Source: Verrucomicrobiota bacterium
GTDB taxonomy: Bacteria; Verrucomicrobiota; Verrucomicrobiia; Limisphaerales; UBA11320
NCBI GenBank assembly: GCA_016199985.1
Contig: JACQFQ010000030.1
Coordinates: 62,001-126,000 of the forward strand
Direction: 5' to 3'
DNA: 64,000 nucleotides
Shown here: positions 19,869 to 33,219 of the stretch, one piece after another
Numbering within the stretch: the stretch's first letter is position 1
Layout of the letters: each line of letters opens with the position of its first letter
Position numbers and translations under genes: made by a program
The notes under the pieces: model-generated
Seen by the model: only the letters and a program-made list of their open reading frames with translations
Told to the model about the DNA's origin: nothing
Databases searched by the model: none

Positions 19869-21206
<1,338 letters not shown>

Positions 21207-21212
21207 AGAGCT

Positions 21213-21839
21213 TCAGGAGTTCTTCAACAGGACGTGAGAGAGCACATCGCCCGCATCGCGGCATCGATCCACCACCTTCTCGTTGAGCGCGAAAAGGTCA
21301 TGGAGCATCACCGCCTTGAGAGCCGGAAAACCAGGTCGATAGAGCGCCTGCATCATGTCGAGCACGAGATCGTCCGCATGGGATTCGATCAGCTGCAGCT
21401 CGTTCTGCAATGCCTTGATGCCGCCCAGATCGCGCCCTTCCTTCAGCGCCAGAATCATCCTGTGAACCAGCTGGACAGCCTGCTCCACCAGGATGAGCTG
21501 ACGTGAAAAATCCACGTCCTTCAGCTGCTCCTCCACAATCAGGTAGCGCTCGGCGAATTTCTCCACGGTTTTCGGGATCTTGTACAGGGCGTCGGCGAGC
21601 GCCTCGATGTCCTCGCGCTCCATCGGCGTGACGAACGTGGTCACCAGCATCTCCTGCAGACGCGTCGTGATCTCCTTGTCTTTGCGCCGCACGGCGGCGA
21701 ACGTCTCGAGGCTCCGCATAGCCCCCGGTCTGAACAGCGCGCGCAACTCGGCCACGGCCCTGGATCCCTCCAGCGCGCTCGCCTCCAGCAGGGAGAAGAA
21801 CTCGTCCTCGCGGCCCAGTAGTCTTTGAAAGCTGATCAT
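21213..21839 (-). CDS. DUF47/PhoU-like Pit accessory protein, copy A
   Basis: ALYKIPKTVEKFAERYLI...VVDRCRDAGDVLSHVLLKN; ends 7 bp upstream of the pit start. Confidence 0.88.
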   Translation of the reverse strand: MISFQRLLGREDEFFSLLEASALEGSRAVAELRALFRPGAMRSLETFAAVRRKDKEITTRLQEMLVTTFVTPMEREDIEALADALYKIPKTVEKFAERYLIVEEQLKDVDFSRQLILVEQAVQLVHRMILALKEGRDLGGIKALQNELQLIESHADDLVLDMMQALYRPGFPALKAVMLHDLFALNEKVVDRCRDAGDVLSHVLLKNS

Positions 21840-21878
21840 ACGAATCGCAATGGAAAACAGCGCGTTCGGCCGCCCGGG

Positions 21879-22514
21879 TCAGGCGTTCTTCAGAACAATG
21901 TGGGTCACGACGTTCCCGGCGTCGCGGCATCGGTCGATGACCTTCTCCAGCAGCTCGAAAATGTCCTTCAGGGCGATGACCTTTGTGGCTTCGTGCCGAC
22001 CGCTGTAAAGGTCCTTCAGGATCTCCAGGATCAGCTTGTCGGCGTCGCCCTCGACCTGCTGCAGCTCGCTGTTGAGCCGCTTGGCCTCCTCCAGCTGGCC
22101 CGAGCCCAACCCGCGCAACAGCTTCACCAAGTGGACCACGCGCTGCGTCGCGGCGTCCATCAGTTCCGTGTGGCGCGAGAAATCGGTGCCTCGGATGATC
22201 GTGGCGCTGATGATGAAACGCTCCGCGATCTTCTCCACCGTCTTCGGAATCTTGTACAGCGCCGCGCTCAGCACCTCGATGTCCTCGCGCTCCAACTGCG
22301 ACACGAAGGTGTTCACGAGCGCCTCGTTGATCTGCGCCGTGATGCGCTTGTCCGCTTCCTTCAACTCGTGGAAGCCATCCAACGTGGGCGTCACGTTCGT
22401 GTTCTTCAGAGTCTGGTTCAGTTTCTGGACGCTTTGGCGCGCTTCCTCGGCGCTGGCCTCCAGCAGCTCAAAGAAACGGTCGTCCTTACCCAAGAGTTTC
22501 TGCAGGGAAAACAT
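21879..22514 (-). CDS. DUF47/PhoU-like Pit accessory protein, copy B
   Basis: ALYKIPKTVEKIAERFII...VIDRCRDAGNVVTHIVLKN; paralogue of 21213-21839. Confidence 0.88.
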   Translation of the reverse strand: MFSLQKLLGKDDRFFELLEASAEEARQSVQKLNQTLKNTNVTPTLDGFHELKEADKRITAQINEALVNTFVSQLEREDIEVLSAALYKIPKTVEKIAERFIISATIIRGTDFSRHTELMDAATQRVVHLVKLLRGLGSGQLEEAKRLNSELQQVEGDADKLILEILKDLYSGRHEATKVIALKDIFELLEKVIDRCRDAGNVVTHIVLKNA

Positions 22515-22833: not shown

Positions 22834-23931
22834 ATGGGAACGCATTACGAGCAGTCGATGCAGCGGGACGTTGACCGGATCCAGGGCAAGGTTTCCGAGA
22901 TGGCCGCGCTGGCGGAAGGGGCGTTGGAGGCGTGTCTGAAGGGGCTGCTGGATCGCAATCGCCAGATCGCGTACTCGATCATTCTGCGCGATCGGCGGAT
23001 CGACGAGCTGGAGAAGGAAATTGATCGGCTGTGCCTCGAGTTCATCGTCCGGCAGCAGCCGGTGGCCCGGCCGTTGCGCTTCGCCTATGTCACCATCAAG
23101 ATCAATCAAGAGATTGAGCGCATTGGCGACTACGCCGAGAGCATCGCGCGCCAGATTCTGAAGGTTTCCACCCTGCCGGCCCCCATTCCCCTTCAGCGAT
23201 ACCGCCAGATCGCGGCGCTCTCGATCCCGATGTTTCGCAACGCGGTCCGGGCCTACCTGCAAGGGGACGAGGCGTTGGCGCGATCCACGATGGCGACGGA
23301 GGAGGAAGTGGACGACTTGAAGAGCGCGATCAACGCGGAGCTCGTGCAACTGCGCCAGGAGGACAAGATTCCGCTGAAGGCTTTGACGCCCCTCATGACG
23401 ATCGCCCGCCGATTCGAGCGCGTTTCCGATCAAGCCAAGAACATCTGCGAGGAAACCCTCTACATGGTCACGGGGGAGTATCAGAAGCATTTGGGCGGGG
23501 ATGTCTGGCGGATGGTGTTCATCGACGCCCACAACTCCTGCGCCAGCCAGATGGCCGAGGCGATCGGCCACTCCCTGGGAAAGCCCCAGTTTGTTTTCTC
23601 CAGCGCCGGGGCCGAGCCGGGGCCGATCGATCCGGAACTCGTCGTCTTTCTCAAGGGCAAGGGGCTCGACATTTCGAACGCGGTCCCCAAGACGCCCGAG
23701 CAGGTGCCGAACTGGGAGTTCAGCCAGATCCGCGTTGCCCTGGATCCCGCCGCCAAGAGGTTCTTTCCGTCCGGGAACCGAACGGTGTGCCTGGATTGGG
23801 CCCTCCCCGACGCCGCGCGGGTTTCGGGCTCGCCTGAGCAAAGGGCGGCCGCCTACGAGGCTGCCTATCAATTCCTGCTCGAACACATCACAGCGCTGGT
23901 GAACGCGGTTCTGAGCGACAAGATTCCCTGA
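22834..23931 (+). CDS. phoU: PhoU domain protein with C-terminal arsenate-reductase/LMW-phosphatase-like domain lacking catalytic residues
   Basis: N-terminus YEQSMQRDVDRIQGKVSEMAALAEGALE...; C-terminus VFIDAHNSCASQMAEAIGHSLGKPQFVFSSAGAEPGPIDP. Confidence 0.87.
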   Translation: MGTHYEQSMQRDVDRIQGKVSEMAALAEGALEACLKGLLDRNRQIAYSIILRDRRIDELEKEIDRLCLEFIVRQQPVARPLRFAYVTIKINQEIERIGDYAESIARQILKVSTLPAPIPLQRYRQIAALSIPMFRNAVRAYLQGDEALARSTMATEEEVDDLKSAINAELVQLRQEDKIPLKALTPLMTIARRFERVSDQAKNICEETLYMVTGEYQKHLGGDVWRMVFIDAHNSCASQMAEAIGHSLGKPQFVFSSAGAEPGPIDPELVVFLKGKGLDISNAVPKTPEQVPNWEFSQIRVALDPAAKRFFPSGNRTVCLDWALPDAARVSGSPEQRAAAYEAAYQFLLEHITALVNAVLSDKIP

Positions 23932-23963: not shown

Positions 23964-24908
23964 ATGATCCCAAGACTCAATCCCAAGACGCTTCTGGCGC
24001 CCACCGTGGCCTGCCTCGCCGCCGCCCTCATGGGCGTTGGATGCGGCGGGGACTCGCCCCCTCCCGCTCCGGCCAAGGGCGAGGCCGCCGCGCCCGCCGC
24101 GCCCGTGAAGAAGAAGACCATCGCCAACATTGGCTCCGACACGATGGTGAATCTCGCCGCCGCTTGGGCGGAGGCTTACGGCCAAGTGGACAAATCGGTC
24201 TCTGTCGAAGTCAACGGCGGCGGCTCCGGCACGGGGATGGCGGCCTTGATCAACGGCACCTGCGATCTTGCGAACAGCAGCCGCAAAATCGAGGAGAAGG
24301 AAGTCGCCGAGCTGAAGACCAAGATGAACAAGGAAGCCAAGGAGTTCATGGTCGGCTACGACGCGCTCTCGATCTTCGTCCACAAGGACAGTCCGCTGAC
24401 CGAAATCTCCATGGATCAGCTGGGCGAGATCTACAGGGATGGCGGCAAGATCACCAAGTGGTCGGACCTGGGCGTCACGGTGCCTGGCGCCAAGGGCGAT
24501 GAGATCATTCGCGTGAGCCGTCAGAACAACTCCGGAACCTACCACTACTTCAAGGAAGCGGTCGTCGGCAAGAAGAGCGAGTTCAAGCTCGGATCCCTCG
24601 ATATGAACGGCTCCAAGGATGTCGTCGACCTCATTTCCAAGACCCCCAACGCGATTGGCTACTCGGGGATGGGCTATGCCACCGCGGAGGTCAAGCAGCT
24701 GAAGGTCTCGAAGAAGAAGGGCGAGCCGGGCATCGCTCCGAGTATTGCCACCACCCTCGACAAGACTTATCCCATCGCGCGTCCGATGTTCGTCTACACC
24801 GCGGGCGAGCCGCCCGAACATGTGAAGAAATACATCGACTGGATCCTTTCGGACGCGGGACAGAAGATCATCGAAACCACGGGCTACGTTCCTTTGCCCA
24901 AGAAGTAA
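23964..24908 (+). CDS. pstS: Phosphate ABC transporter substrate-binding lipoprotein
   Basis: Lipobox-like LMGVGCGG; IGSDTMVNLAAAWAEAYGQ, GGGSGTGMAALINGTCDLANSSR, VSRQNNSGTYHYFKE. Confidence 0.95.
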   Translation: MIPRLNPKTLLAPTVACLAAALMGVGCGGDSPPPAPAKGEAAAPAAPVKKKTIANIGSDTMVNLAAAWAEAYGQVDKSVSVEVNGGGSGTGMAALINGTCDLANSSRKIEEKEVAELKTKMNKEAKEFMVGYDALSIFVHKDSPLTEISMDQLGEIYRDGGKITKWSDLGVTVPGAKGDEIIRVSRQNNSGTYHYFKEAVVGKKSEFKLGSLDMNGSKDVVDLISKTPNAIGYSGMGYATAEVKQLKVSKKKGEPGIAPSIATTLDKTYPIARPMFVYTAGEPPEHVKKYIDWILSDAGQKIIETTGYVPLPKK

Positions 24909-24950: not shown

Positions 24951-25844
24951 ATGACCTCGAAGCGTGGAACGCTGGACCTGCTGTCGGAACGAGCCATCGA
25001 GGCTCTCATCCGATTGTGCGGCATCAGCGCGATCCTCTTTGTCTTCGGGATCTTCTTCTTCGTGTTTCGGGAAGGCGCGCCCTTCCTCCGGCATTTGGAT
25101 TTGGGGGAGTTCCTGTTCAGCAAGTCCTGGATCCCCACCTCCCAAACCGTTCCGAAGTACGGGGTGGGGGCCCTGATCGTCGGCAGCCTGAGCGTCACCG
25201 CGGTCGCGATGGCGATCGCGGTGCCCTTCGGGCTTGGCGCGGCGGTCTTCATCTCCGAGTTCTGCGGCAGGAAGACCAAGGAGACGCTCAAGATCGTGAT
25301 CGAGCTGCTCGCCGCGATTCCCAGCGTGGTCTGGGGTTTCGTGGGCCTCAGCGTGATGAGCCCGCTCCTGATCAACACATTCCACACCCCGATCGGCGTG
25401 AACATGCTGAACGGCGCGCTGCTCCTCGCGCTGATGAGCGTGCCGATCATGGTAAGCATTGGCGAAGACGCGTTGAAGGCCGTGCCCGACAGCTTCAGGG
25501 AGGCCGCGATCGCGCTGGGCGCGACGCGATGGCAGATGGTCTATCGGGTGCTGCTGCCCGCGTCCAAGAACGGGCTTCTGGCGGCGGTGCTCCTGGGCGT
25601 CGGCCGCGCGATCGGCGAGACCATGGCGGTGCTGATGGCGACGGGCCATTCGGTTCGAATCCCCACCAGCATCTTCGATCCCGTCCGCACGCTCACCGCC
25701 ACCATCGCCGCCGAGCTCGGGGAGACCTCTAAGGGCTCGGACCACTACCAGGTGCTGTTTCTGATCGGAGTCCTGCTGTTCACCATCACCTTCATCGTCA
25801 ACCTGACCGCGGACCTGGTGGTCAAGGGCATCCGAAAGCAATAG
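24951..25844 (+). CDS. pstC: Phosphate ABC transporter permease PstC
   Basis: EALKAVPDSFREAAIALGATRWQMVYRVLLPASKNGLLAAVLLGVGRAIGETMAVLMATG. Confidence 0.95.
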   Translation: MTSKRGTLDLLSERAIEALIRLCGISAILFVFGIFFFVFREGAPFLRHLDLGEFLFSKSWIPTSQTVPKYGVGALIVGSLSVTAVAMAIAVPFGLGAAVFISEFCGRKTKETLKIVIELLAAIPSVVWGFVGLSVMSPLLINTFHTPIGVNMLNGALLLALMSVPIMVSIGEDALKAVPDSFREAAIALGATRWQMVYRVLLPASKNGLLAAVLLGVGRAIGETMAVLMATGHSVRIPTSIFDPVRTLTATIAAELGETSKGSDHYQVLFLIGVLLFTITFIVNLTADLVVKGIRKQ

Positions 25845-25848
25845 CGCC

Positions 25849-26778
25849 ATGACTTCACGAGCCTCGCATCTTGCGGTCGCGACCTTCGCCGGGACGCCCT
25901 TCGTCCGACGGAAGGAGCGAAACGAAATGGTCGCGAAGTGCTTTTTCGGGATGATGGCGGCCGCGATGATTGTGCCGCTCATCCTCATCGTGGGCTACAT
26001 CGTCGTCCAGGGATGGCCCCTTCTTTCCTGGGAGTTTCTCACCACCAATCCGCGCGGCGGCGGCGTGCGCGGCGGTGTCTGGTCGGCTCTGATCGGCACC
26101 CTCTACCTCGTGGGCTTCTCGCTGCTCATCTCGGCGCCCATCGGAGTGCTCGCCGCGGTGTACTTGAACGAGTACGCGCGCGACAACTGGTTCACGCGCG
26201 TCGTGAATCTGGCCGTCGTGAACCTCGCGGGCGTTCCGAGCATTGTCCACGGGCTCTTCGGCCTCGGGGCCTTTGTTTACTTCGCGAACCTCAACGAGGG
26301 GAAGAAGTCGATCATCGCGGCCGCGCTCACCCTGGCCGTGATGACGCTGCCAGTGATCATCGCCTCGACCAAGGAGGCGCTGTCCAGCGTGCCTGTTTCC
26401 TTTCGCGAGGCCTGCTGGAACGTCGGCGCGACCCGCTGGCAGACCATCTGGCGGATCGTGCTGCCCAACTCCATCAGCGGCATCCTGACCGGAGTGATCC
26501 TCCAGGTCTCCCGAACCGCGGGCGAGACGGCCCCCGTGATGCTCACGGGAGTCACGACCTGGAAGATGATCGAAAGCACGGGCTGGCTGCTGTATCACCC
26601 GGTGAAGGACCAGTGCATGGCGTTGTCCATGCATCTCTACTACATCGCGACGCAGGCGAGCGGCGCTCCCAAGGCGCTTCCCTTCGCGATCGCGACCGTG
26701 CTGGTCGGCGCGGTCGTGCTCGTCAACGCCACCGCGATCATTTTCCGCATCTACCTCCGATCCCGAAAGAAATGGTAG
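25849..26778 (+). CDS. pstA: Phosphate ABC transporter permease PstA
   Basis: EALSSVPVSFREACWNVGATRWQTIWRIVLPNSISGILTGVILQVSRTAGETAPVMLTG. Confidence 0.95.
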   Translation: MTSRASHLAVATFAGTPFVRRKERNEMVAKCFFGMMAAAMIVPLILIVGYIVVQGWPLLSWEFLTTNPRGGGVRGGVWSALIGTLYLVGFSLLISAPIGVLAAVYLNEYARDNWFTRVVNLAVVNLAGVPSIVHGLFGLGAFVYFANLNEGKKSIIAAALTLAVMTLPVIIASTKEALSSVPVSFREACWNVGATRWQTIWRIVLPNSISGILTGVILQVSRTAGETAPVMLTGVTTWKMIESTGWLLYHPVKDQCMALSMHLYYIATQASGAPKALPFAIATVLVGAVVLVNATAIIFRIYLRSRKKW

Positions 26779-26783
26779 CGACC

Positions 26784-27590
26784 ATGCCCAACCCGAATGT
26801 TTCCACTTTCTCCGCGTCCGTCGGAGCCCCGCCCGTGTCGCCCAAGGTCGAGGTCCGGGACCTTCGACTGGCCTACGGGGCCAAGGAGGTGCTCCACGGC
26901 ATCTCGTTCCACATCGATCCGAACGAGATCCTGGGCGTGATCGGACCGGCCCAGTCCGGCAAGACCTCCCTGCTGCGCTGCGTCAATCGCACCATCGACT
27001 TCACGGCGAGCGCCAGGACCTCGGGGGTTGTGAAGGTCGACGGAGAGGATGTTCGAACGTTGCGCGATGTGTACGGGCTTCGGCGCAAGATCGGGATGGT
27101 GGCCCCGCTCCCCGTGGGCCTGCCGCTGAGCATCTACGACAACGTCGCGTTCGCGCCGCGCGCCGCTGGGCTGCGCGACAAGGGGCGGCTTAACGACCTG
27201 GTTGAACGCTGCCTGACCCAGGCCGCGCTCTGGGACGAGGTGAAGGATAGGCTCGATTCCCTCGGCACCAAGCTTTCCGGCGGACAGCAGCAGCGCCTCA
27301 CCATCGCGAGGGCGCTCTCCCATGAGCCCGAGATTCTGTGCCTCGACGAGTTCAGCATCGCCATCGATCCCGTCACCACCATGAGGATCGAGGATGTTCT
27401 CAAGGAGCTGCGCCGAAACATGACCATCATTCTCGTGACCAATTTGGTGCAGCAGGCGCGACGGCTCGCCAACCGGACCATGTTCCTCTGGAACGGCGAG
27501 ATCATCGAGATCGATCGGACGGAGGCGATGTTCAGCGACAGCCCCAAAGACAAACGCACCTACGACTATGTCAACGGCATCTTTGGCTAA
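26784..27590 (+). CDS. pstB: Phosphate ABC transporter ATP-binding protein, first paralogue (PstB1)
   Basis: Walker A GPAQSGKTS, signature LSGGQQQRL, Walker B ILCLDEFSIAID; Q-loop (GMVAPLPVG) and H-loop (LVTNLVQQA) altered. Confidence 0.92.
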   Translation: MPNPNVSTFSASVGAPPVSPKVEVRDLRLAYGAKEVLHGISFHIDPNEILGVIGPAQSGKTSLLRCVNRTIDFTASARTSGVVKVDGEDVRTLRDVYGLRRKIGMVAPLPVGLPLSIYDNVAFAPRAAGLRDKGRLNDLVERCLTQAALWDEVKDRLDSLGTKLSGGQQQRLTIARALSHEPEILCLDEFSIAIDPVTTMRIEDVLKELRRNMTIILVTNLVQQARRLANRTMFLWNGEIIEIDRTEAMFSDSPKDKRTYDYVNGIFG

Positions 27591-28389
27591 GCCCCAGCCG
27601 CAGGAGGGGTCCCCGACGATGGCCGGCCCCCCCCACGGCATCACCACCCGGGATCTCTGTCTTTGGTACGCGAAGTTTCAGGCGCTGAAGAACATCACCG
27701 TCCGGATACGACACGGAATCATCACCTCCCTGATCGGCCCCAGCGGCTGCGGCAAGACGACCTTCCTTCGTTGCCTCAACCGCGTGAACGAGCGCTACGG
27801 GTATGTCACCACTCAGGGAGAGATCCAGATTCATGGAAAGAACATCTATGACGCCGACGTCTCGCTGATCGAGCTGCGAAAGCAGGTGGGCATGGTCTTC
27901 CAGCGGCCCAATCCGCTTCCGATCTCCATCTACGAGAACGTGGTTTTTGGGTTGCGCATTCACAACGAGAAGAAAGCTTCCCGGAGCGAGTTGGACGCGG
28001 CGGTGGAGAAGTCGCTGACCGAGGTCGGCCTGTGGAACGATCTCAAGGACCGCCTGCAGGCGAGGGCCACCAGCCTTCAGCTGGAGCAGCAGCAAAAGCT
28101 GTGCATCGCCCGGCTGCTCCCCCTCAAGCCCGACCTCATCCTGATGGACGAGCCCTGCAGCTCCCTCGACGTCGAAGGCACCCGGGCGATCGAGGAGCTC
28201 ATGCGCGAGCTTCGCGGTCGCTACACGATCGTGATCGTGACCCACAACATGGCCCAGGCTCGGCGCGCCAGCGATGAATGCATCTTCATGCTTCTGGGCG
28301 AGCTGGTGGAGCACTCCCGAACCGAGGACCTGTTTCTCTCGCCCAAGGACTCCAAGACCGCCGATTACATCGAAGGCCGATACGGGTAG
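27568..28389 (+). CDS. pstB: Phosphate ABC transporter ATP-binding protein, second paralogue (PstB2)
   Basis: Walker A GPSGCGKTT, Q-loop GMVFQRPNP, Walker B LILMDEPCSSLD, H-loop IVTHNMAQA; signature degenerate (SLQLEQQQKL). Alternative ATG at 27619. Confidence 0.92.
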   Translation: MSTASLAKPQPQEGSPTMAGPPHGITTRDLCLWYAKFQALKNITVRIRHGIITSLIGPSGCGKTTFLRCLNRVNERYGYVTTQGEIQIHGKNIYDADVSLIELRKQVGMVFQRPNPLPISIYENVVFGLRIHNEKKASRSELDAAVEKSLTEVGLWNDLKDRLQARATSLQLEQQQKLCIARLLPLKPDLILMDEPCSSLDVEGTRAIEELMRELRGRYTIVIVTHNMAQARRASDECIFMLLGELVEHSRTEDLFLSPKDSKTADYIEGRYG

Positions 28390-30825: not shown

Positions 30826-33219
30826 TCAGGGCATCTTCACGTTGAAGGAGAGGAACACGGCGTGCGCGACGTAGTTGTTGAACCCGCCCGTGTTTTTCTC
30901 GTCGTAGTGGTAGAAGCCGTACTGCAGCCGTGTGGTGACGTTCTTGCGGAAGCGCCAGGTGACGCCGCCCTGCGCTCCATGCAGCTCGTAATCGAGCCCC
31001 AGGGGCAGTCCCTCCGCGATATTCGCCTGGCCATAATCGGCGCGCGACCAGTTGTAGCTGCCCGTCAGGTCCGTGGTCGGGCTCAACGCGTAGGTCGCGC
31101 TCGAGACCACCGAATACATATTCCCGCGATAGGGGACGACCGACGCGATATCGCTCTGCTCGGTGGTGGTGCGCGTGTGGCGATATGTTGCGGTCTCCTG
31201 GAGGCTCAGGCGCGTCCAGGGGTGAATCGAAGCTCCGACGCTGTAGCTGTGCGCGTCCTGCTTCCCGCTAAACTGCCCGCCTCCGGGAACGCCGGTGACG
31301 GGCTCGGCATCCGTGCCCGTCCAGTAGTCGCTGTCCGTCCACTTATACGTGAATGTCGCGCGAATCCAGGAGGCGAGCTTAAAGGTCGCGTGCCCCTCGA
31401 CTTCGTCCGTGGCCGTCTCCCGCTCCCTGATGAACGCCGGATAGCCCGCCGAGCCGTAGAACGGCCCGTTGTCGAGGCGGGTGGTGTAATGATCCGCGTA
31501 GTCGCGATGTCGAAAGTGGCCGCCGAAGCTCACGCGCGGAACCGGACTCGCGCTGAAGCCGGCGCGCCAGTCCTTCAGGTCCGAATGAACGCCGCTGTCG
31601 CGGTCCGCCACAAAGTAATAGGACGCGCCCGCAAGGCTTTGAAAAAGATCCATCGTCTCCTGCCGCATCCGCGCCTCGGCGAAGAGCACTGTGGAGGGAA
31701 TACGCGTGAAGCGAAGGGCGACGCTCTCCTGAACGGAGGTCTTGTCGTAGTTCCCCGCGACGGCGTCGATCTCGCCGGTGGTGGCGAACGGCGCCACGTT
31801 CAGCAGCTGTTGTCCAAAGCCGCGTTGGCCCGTCCACTCGCTCTGCGCTCCCGCCACCAATGAAAGGCCTTCCCAGGGGCCGAGCAAGAAGTTGGCGTTG
31901 GCCATATGGGTTTCGCGATCGAGGACAATGTCGTAGCCCGAAATGTTTCCATTGAGCGGGAATCCACTGTCCGCGTAATAGTTTCCGACAAGGCCAACCG
32001 CGCTGTCGCCTCGCAGGCGGCTGTAGAGATAGCCCGCTGACGCGAACAGCCAGCTCTTCAGCTGCTTTTCCAATTGCAGGGCGTTCGCCCCATGGAAGTG
32101 GCTGGCCGTTTCCGTGAGGGTCGTGGCCTCGAACGCGCCGGAGCCTAGGTTGAAGAGCTGCGTCTGATGGTCGCTGTTGACGTGATAGAACTCTCCTCGA
32201 AACTGGTCCTGCAGCCGCCACCCTTCCCAGGTGTGATCGAGATCGAACCGAAGAATGTGCGTTTGCTCGCGCAGCGACTTATAGGCGGGGTAGACCGAGC
32301 GGCCGGTTGTGGTGGGATCCTCGGTGTTCCCCCAGTTGAGCATGCCCTTCTCGCCATCGCGGTATTGATACTCATAGCCGAGCGTCATCACCGGCCAATG
32401 GGGACGATTGAGCGTGAGGTCGAACCAGGCGCGCCCCGAATCCAGATACAGGGCCCTATCCAGGTTGGGAGACTGGGTCGCGAGGCCGGGATGGTATCCG
32501 CCCTGGTCTGAGAAGTATTTGCGGGCCTGCTCCCATCCAAACTTGACGGAGCCCAGCTTGGGCTTCGTCAACTCGAGGCTGATGTGGTAGTCGTCGCGAA
32601 GAATCCTCGCGTGCGCCTTAAACCGGCTCTCGTCCGGCAGGCGCTCCGTGAAATCCAGGCTCTGAATGCCCCCGTTGACGCCCTGAGGCATCCAAAAGTG
32701 CTCCCGGAACTTCGCCTCGTTCCCCTTCACTCCCACGCCGCCGAAGATCGTGGTGACATCGAGATCGTAGGGCGGGGCTTTCGCGGTCGCGCCCCAAACG
32801 ACGCCCTGATCGATCCATGCGCGCAGCAGCGACACTTGTTCGGTTGTCAACGGATCGCCCTTGCCCGCGGGCGGCATTTCCATGTCGGAAACCAAACGCG
32901 CGACGTAATGAATCAGGGCGCTTTGATCGCTCTTGCCGGGCACGATCGCGACTCCATTGTCGCCGCCCTTCAAGGCCGCTTCTCTTGAATCGAGACGAAA
33001 CCCGCTCTTGGGTTTCTCGGGGCCGTGGCACCGGAAGCAGGAACGCTCGAACAGCGGGCGGATATCGCGGTCAAAGTCGATCGGCTTCGCGGATGGAGGA
33101 GGCAGCTTCGACACGTCCACCGTGGCGGCCGTGGCGGCCGTGGCGGCAAGGGACGCGCCGCCGAGACCCGCCAACAGGCCCGCTCCGAAGCCGTGTCGCC
33201 TGAAGAACCTGGTTCGCAT
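30826..33219 (-). CDS. Fusion of N-terminal planctomycete-type cytochrome c domain (PSCyt1-like) and C-terminal outer-membrane beta-barrel (MtrB/PioB-like)
   Basis: IRPLFERSCFRCHGPEKPKSGFRLDSREAALKGGDNG...DMEMPPAGKGDPLT; then ~600 aa of alternating aromatic/polar strands (YGFYHYDEKNTGGFNNYVAHAVFLSFNVKMP). Confidence 0.8.
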   Translation of the reverse strand: MRTRFFRRHGFGAGLLAGLGGASLAATAATAATVDVSKLPPPSAKPIDFDRDIRPLFERSCFRCHGPEKPKSGFRLDSREAALKGGDNGVAIVPGKSDQSALIHYVARLVSDMEMPPAGKGDPLTTEQVSLLRAWIDQGVVWGATAKAPPYDLDVTTIFGGVGVKGNEAKFREHFWMPQGVNGGIQSLDFTERLPDESRFKAHARILRDDYHISLELTKPKLGSVKFGWEQARKYFSDQGGYHPGLATQSPNLDRALYLDSGRAWFDLTLNRPHWPVMTLGYEYQYRDGEKGMLNWGNTEDPTTTGRSVYPAYKSLREQTHILRFDLDHTWEGWRLQDQFRGEFYHVNSDHQTQLFNLGSGAFEATTLTETASHFHGANALQLEKQLKSWLFASAGYLYSRLRGDSAVGLVGNYYADSGFPLNGNISGYDIVLDRETHMANANFLLGPWEGLSLVAGAQSEWTGQRGFGQQLLNVAPFATTGEIDAVAGNYDKTSVQESVALRFTRIPSTVLFAEARMRQETMDLFQSLAGASYYFVADRDSGVHSDLKDWRAGFSASPVPRVSFGGHFRHRDYADHYTTRLDNGPFYGSAGYPAFIRERETATDEVEGHATFKLASWIRATFTYKWTDSDYWTGTDAEPVTGVPGGGQFSGKQDAHSYSVGASIHPWTRLSLQETATYRHTRTTTEQSDIASVVPYRGNMYSVVSSATYALSPTTDLTGSYNWSRADYGQANIAEGLPLGLDYELHGAQGGVTWRFRKNVTTRLQYGFYHYDEKNTGGFNNYVAHAVFLSFNVKMP
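33121..33150. repeat. Short in-frame tandem repeat (9-bp unit, about 3 copies)
   Basis: cgtggcggccgtggcggccgtggcggc, encoding the AATAATAAT stretch in the signal region of the barrel fusion. Confidence 0.75.

Follow-up and report, generated by a model that had tools for sequence, protein, structure and literature searches.

Work on degenerate ATP sites has mainly concerned exporters, where such sites are well known. Each ATP site of an ABC transporter is a composite: Walker A, Walker B, the Q-loop and the H-loop come from one subunit and the signature from the other (PMC7756269). In the asymmetric exporters (TM287/288, TAP, CFTR, Pdr5 and ABCG5/G8) one composite site is consensus and the other degenerate, in many cases with loss of the Walker B Glu; the degenerate signature of Pdr5 reads LNVEQ (PMC7756269). 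Among importers, one degenerate ATP site has been predicted in the fused-ATPase systems RbsA and NupO (PMC11466899), where two ATPase domains lie in one chain and the Walker A Lys of the second is lost.

Phosphate importers of the canonical PstSCAB type (as in E. coli; PstB structures PDB 9k3x, 9k3y and 9k3s) have PstS, PstC, PstA and PhoU in one operon with a single intact ATPase gene. E. coli PstB altered in both sites, by either Q160K (signature) or E179Q (Walker B), gives no transport, and by its open and closed states the protein is believed to pass a signal to PhoU and PhoR (PMC5775613). Paired pstB genes also occur elsewhere, as the first-pass annotation had pointed out: Enterococcus faecalis (PMC12096839) and Bacillus subtilis (PstBA/PstBB, PMC11466899) each have a pst operon with two pstB genes side by side, and these Firmicutes pairs are canonical. 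Paired canonical PstBs in Brevibacillus, Ammoniphilus and Paenibacillus (L095, L108, L126) show none of the losses described below. No description of a degenerate or asymmetric PstB pair was found in the open-licence literature searched. Degenerate sites in exporters, those of RbsA and NupO, and canonical PstB pairs are already known; what seems to be new is an asymmetric PstB pair in a Pst importer.

The pair lies in a stretch of 64,000 nucleotides, here called the window, from a Verrucomicrobiota genome. A plus-strand operon runs in the order phoU~arsC-like, pstS, pstC, pstA, pstB1, pstB2, the two ATPase genes being the last:

22834..23931, + strand: PhoU with an arsenate-reductase/low-molecular-weight-phosphatase-like domain (TIGR02135, 158.6 bits; above the cut-off of 130.25)
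23964..24908, + strand: pstS, phosphate-binding protein (TIGR02136, 245.2 bits; above the cut-off of 206.6)
24951..25844, + strand: pstC, permease subunit (TIGR02138, 291.5 bits; above the cut-off of 196.45)
25849..26778, + strand: pstA, permease subunit (TIGR00974, 262.5 bits; above the cut-off of 193.45)
26784..27590, + strand: pstB1, ATPase subunit (TIGR00972, 274 bits; cut-off 343.2)
27568..28389, + strand: pstB2, ATPase subunit (TIGR00972, 329 bits; cut-off 343.2)

With PstC and PstA over their curated cut-offs and encoded together with PhoU and a PstS-type binding protein, the locus is that of a Pst importer; families and operon together make phosphate the predicted substrate. The 3′ end of pstB1 overlaps the 5′ end of pstB2 by 23 bases, and the start of pstB2 (MSTASL) is conserved in a congener (L050). 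TIGR00972, the PstB equivalog, is the best-scoring family for both ATPases, yet both fall below its curated cut-off: judged by sequence, PstB1 and PstB2 are divergent PstB paralogues and not standard PstBs.

The two proteins have lost different motifs. PstB1 has an intact signature (LSGGQQQR); its Walker A reads GPAQSGKT, its Q-loop GMVAPLPVG (Gln to Pro), its Walker B ILCLDE and its switch VTNLVQQ (His to Asn). PstB2 is canonical in Walker A (GPSGCGKT), Q-loop (GMVFQRPNP), Walker B (LILMDE) and switch (VTHNM), and carries LQLEQQQK in place of LSGGQ(QQR). On rereading of the sequence, the first-pass annotation proved exact both for PstB1 (LSGGQQQR kept, Q-loop Gln and switch His lost) and for PstB2 (signature lost, the other four motifs kept). 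Two details had been overlooked: the middle Gly of the PstB1 Walker A is also gone (GPAQ/GPAN, with Gln in the window), a loss belonging to the same degenerate site, and the PstB1 D-loop reads FSIAID against PxSALD (S to I), a substitution reaching beyond that site. Kept in PstB1 are the Lys of Walker A, both acidic residues of Walker B (Asp and Glu) and the Tyr of the A-loop. The complete ATPase motif set is present in neither protein alone. Head-to-tail pairing of PstB1 with PstB2 would bring all the key losses into one composite site. The other site had been called fully canonical; this holds for all its key motifs and fails for the D-loop of PstB1.

The locus thus has the operon partners of canonical PstSCAB, but two ATPase genes with complementary losses, both under the PstB cut-off, where the canonical system has one. 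The two adjacent pstB genes in a single pst operon recall the Firmicutes pairs; in E. faecalis, however, both PstBs carry all motifs, whereas here neither does. Of the two composite sites predicted here one is consensus and the other degenerate, as in the asymmetric exporters, and the LQLEQ of PstB2 is close to the LNVEQ of Pdr5. The earlier comparison with these exporters stands, with a difference from many of them at the catalytic Glu: its replacement is frequent, though not universal, in degenerate exporter sites, but here it is kept, and the residues missing are Gln, His and the middle Gly of Walker A. Unlike RbsA and NupO, the present system has its ATPases on two separate genes, keeps the Walker A Lys and is a predicted phosphate importer.

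We consider it very likely that PstB1 and PstB2 would form an obligate head-to-tail heterodimer under PstC and PstA, with one hydrolysing and one degenerate ATP site; the heterodimer, one-site hydrolysis and a hinge role for the degenerate site are all inferred. The consensus site would combine the Walker A/B, Gln and His of PstB2 with the LSGGQ of PstB1 and would hydrolyse ATP. The degenerate site would combine the PstB1 Walker A/B, Pro for Gln and Asn for His with the LQLEQ of PstB2; because Lys, Asp, Glu and the A-loop Tyr are kept, it would probably bind ATP, with little or no hydrolysis. On this scheme each transport cycle would cost about one hydrolysis, and the degenerate site, held by its ATP, would act as a hinge or in regulation. 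Either homodimer would have two defective sites, the PstB1–PstB2 pair one complete and one degenerate. It is possible that the retained Walker B Glu of PstB1 supports some hydrolysis at the degenerate site. The D-loop change in PstB1 tells against the heterodimer model, in that it touches more than the degenerate site; an AlphaFold model of PstB1 (built from 7 sequences) is of moderate confidence, with a mean pLDDT of 71 and a poorly modelled helical domain, and was set aside. One may speculate that an asymmetric pair could alter the PstB signal to PhoU and PhoR.

The loss patterns always occur together in relatives, so that the genome comparison named in the first-pass annotation comes out in its favour. 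Among 58 genomes of the host order (the window's own included) the tandem is present in 19, and all 18 pairs retrieved from relatives share this motif pattern. We then aligned PstB1-types (53 of subtype I and 14 of a second subtype), PstB2-types (50 and 14) and 94 canonical PstBs. LSGGQQQR is present, and the Q-loop Gln and switch His absent, in 67/67 PstB1-types, every one of which has the Walker B DE; in 64/64 PstB2-types SGG is absent while Walker A (GPSGCGK), Gln, Asp-Glu (DE) and His are present. The key losses thus fall in one composite site and leave the other intact across these 67 and 64 proteins, the lone change outside the degenerate site being the D-loop S to I of subtype I PstB1. 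All 94 canonical PstBs are intact, the loss pattern occurring in none (0/94), and none of the relatives compared has a homologous PstB1/PstB2 pair whose motifs are complete.

Constraint tracks the predicted sites: parts of the consensus site vary little, those of the degenerate site more. The PstB1 signature shows zero variation, while that of PstB2 occurs as QLE, SLE, LLE, PLD or SPE; mean entropy per column within subtype I is 0.00 bits for the PstB1 signature against 0.40 for that of PstB2, and conversely 0.11 (PstB2) against 0.31 bits (PstB1) for Walker A and 0.02 against 0.24 bits for the Q-loop. The second subtype, from the window's phylum (L145–L155, L159, L164, L165), follows the same logic with other residues: the Q-loop Gln is replaced by Ala and the His by Asn (TNNT), and the partner signature reads LPLD, LPMD or LSPE. 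Its PstB1 has largely lost the A-loop Tyr that subtype I keeps (Y 5, F 4, H 3, Q 2; n = 14), and its degenerate site may bind ATP more weakly.

In a scan of named genomes about 30 loci had PstB1, PstB2 or both, at 55–80% identity. They include MAGs (whose labels can be wrong) assigned to Prosthecobacter, Verrucomicrobiales, Acidobacteria, Poribacteria, Deltaproteobacteria, Planctomycetota, Bacteriovoracaceae, Nitrospirales, Rhodothermales, Accumulibacter, Chromatiaceae, Holophagales, Binatia and Magnetococcales. Bacteria of several phyla maintain the lopsided arrangement, with no exception found, a persistence that suggests a lasting design. Throughout subtype I, across MAGs of many phyla, the order PstS, PstC, PstA, PstB1, PstB2 is constant; PhoU lies before PstS, after it, or elsewhere. 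Four loci have a third PstB-like gene downstream of PstB2 (L043:7148, L064:8528, L066:7570, L081:7843), and in the first three of these most motifs are changed together (in L043, for example, LDKP for LDEP and ATND for VTHN).

The two genes are always encoded together. A profile search for both in 293 genomes of the host order (Limisphaerales) found PstB1 in 59, with 57 of the 60 PstB1 genes directly before a PstB2. The singletons (3 PstB1, 5 PstB2) all lie at contig ends, which explain every apparently unpaired gene (in G522, G549, G575, G656, G055 and G514), leaving no true singleton in the order. No PstB1–PstB2 gene fusion, sought as direct evidence of pairing, was present among the loci read; some loci do have long open frames, but not in the frames of the upstream genes. 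At least three genomes of 90–94% completeness (G005, G040, G057) have the pair and no other PstB over the family cut-off, as do 8 of 12 named genomes (completeness not given); in such genomes the pair alone would have to serve.

Descent was traced in a maximum-likelihood tree of 84 proteins, computed without any of the motif columns and with the root not inferred. Both PstB1 subtypes, with two of the third paralogues, form one group (support 99/98) and both PstB2 subtypes another (97/94), each apart from canonical PstBs. A convergent origin of the second subtype was considered, BLAST having placed both its members nearer canonical PstB, and was rejected because the motif-free tree groups the subtypes. 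For the same reason the simplest reading is one old duplication, with the pair probably asymmetric before the two subtypes split. Given a single ancient origin, the landing of the losses in one site is one event, to be expected by chance about once in two, so the argument rests on the long maintenance of the arrangement. Both genes are under purifying selection: dN/dS between the window and relatives is 0.10–0.18 for PstB1 and 0.08–0.17 for PstB2, rough values with dS near saturation.

Several other explanations must be weighed against the one-site heterodimer. The heterodimer could be real and its asymmetry structural only, both sites hydrolysing ATP and the altered one doing so by means of its Asn and its remaining Walker B Glu. 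In keeping with this, PstB1 still has the Lys of Walker A, the Asp-Glu of Walker B and, in subtype I, the Tyr of the A-loop, but four elements (Walker A Gly, Gln, His and the partner signature) are altered together, at least as much as in most degenerate exporter sites described (PMC7756269), and we regard it as unlikely. That each protein instead dimerises alone under PstC and PstA, giving two transport modes, is very improbable. Paired pstB genes do have separate functions in E. faecalis, although both proteins there carry all motifs (PMC12096839); here a PstB2 dimer would lack the signature at both sites and should, given the E. coli signature mutant that does not transport, be dead, a PstB1 dimer would lack Gln and His at both, the losses are complementary and the genes are apart only at contig ends.

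Less probable still is a division in which one subunit is a non-transport regulator, for instance PstB2 driving transport with PstB1 as a decoy for PhoU, or the reverse. In its favour, E. coli PstB is bound by PhoU (cited in PMC5775613), and the operon has a gene for a PhoU~ArsC-like protein; against this, neither protein has the signature and a full nucleotide pocket together, both genes are under equally strong constraint, and the invariant LSGGQQQR of PstB1 makes sense only as partner for the other subunit's ATP. Decay, assembly error or a quirk of the local lineage might be suspected in a draft assembly of 78 contigs, and deserves next to no credence: it is refuted by the same residues in MAGs of many phyla, the single-origin clades of the tree, dN/dS near 0.1 and the alignment counts. 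The residues, clades and dN/dS likewise exclude a pseudogene, and the altered codons, for which assembly error had been allowed in the first-pass annotation, are conserved in relatives.

The proposed one-site heterodimer would matter beyond this locus. In an importer with its two sites on separate small genes each site can be mutated independently, so that the purpose of a degenerate site becomes directly testable; the solved structure and known signalling mutants of a canonical relative, E. coli PstB, aid such tests. Both subunits fall short of the cut-off of the standard PstB model, so that annotation may undercount such importers. The pair is present in MAGs named Candidatus Accumulibacter (L076, L079, L084), the phosphorus-removing bacterium of wastewater plants, whose phosphate uptake may run partly on the asymmetric variant.

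The first gene of the operon is itself unusual. The PhoU fusion protein also matches TIGR02691 (E 1.7e-10) and PDB 8p5n (E 7e-8). Its C-terminal, ArsC/low-molecular-weight-phosphatase-like domain has Asp where the nucleophile Cys would be (D231, the same in all six proteins aligned), and the window copy has also lost the P-loop Arg (NSCAS). The fusion holds the same place in relatives and is seen again at over 20 asymmetric pst loci, other phyla included; no paper on a PhoU–ArsC fusion was found in the open-licence literature searched. The domain may be a non-catalytic phosphate or arsenate sensor. A broader and distinctly tentative proposal is that these loci represent an ancient, widespread second kind of Pst, combining an asymmetric ATPase (one hydrolysis per cycle) with a PhoU bearing a catalytically altered ArsC-like domain: the degenerate site would serve signalling or phosphate-responsive gating, not power, and transport and sensing would be split between the sites.

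The same genome has a second, canonical pst locus (phoB-phoU-pstB-pstA-pstC-pstS; contig C64, L168), whose PstB scores 401 bits against TIGR00972 and is about 51% identical to PstB2. Adjoining the pst operon of the window, at 19869-22514 on the minus strand, are a low-affinity phosphate transporter (PHO4/Pit) and two different DUF47/PhoU-like genes. At 30826-33219, also on the minus strand, lies the gene for a protein of 797 residues, close to whose start is a Planctomycete-type cytochrome c domain (PSCyt1).
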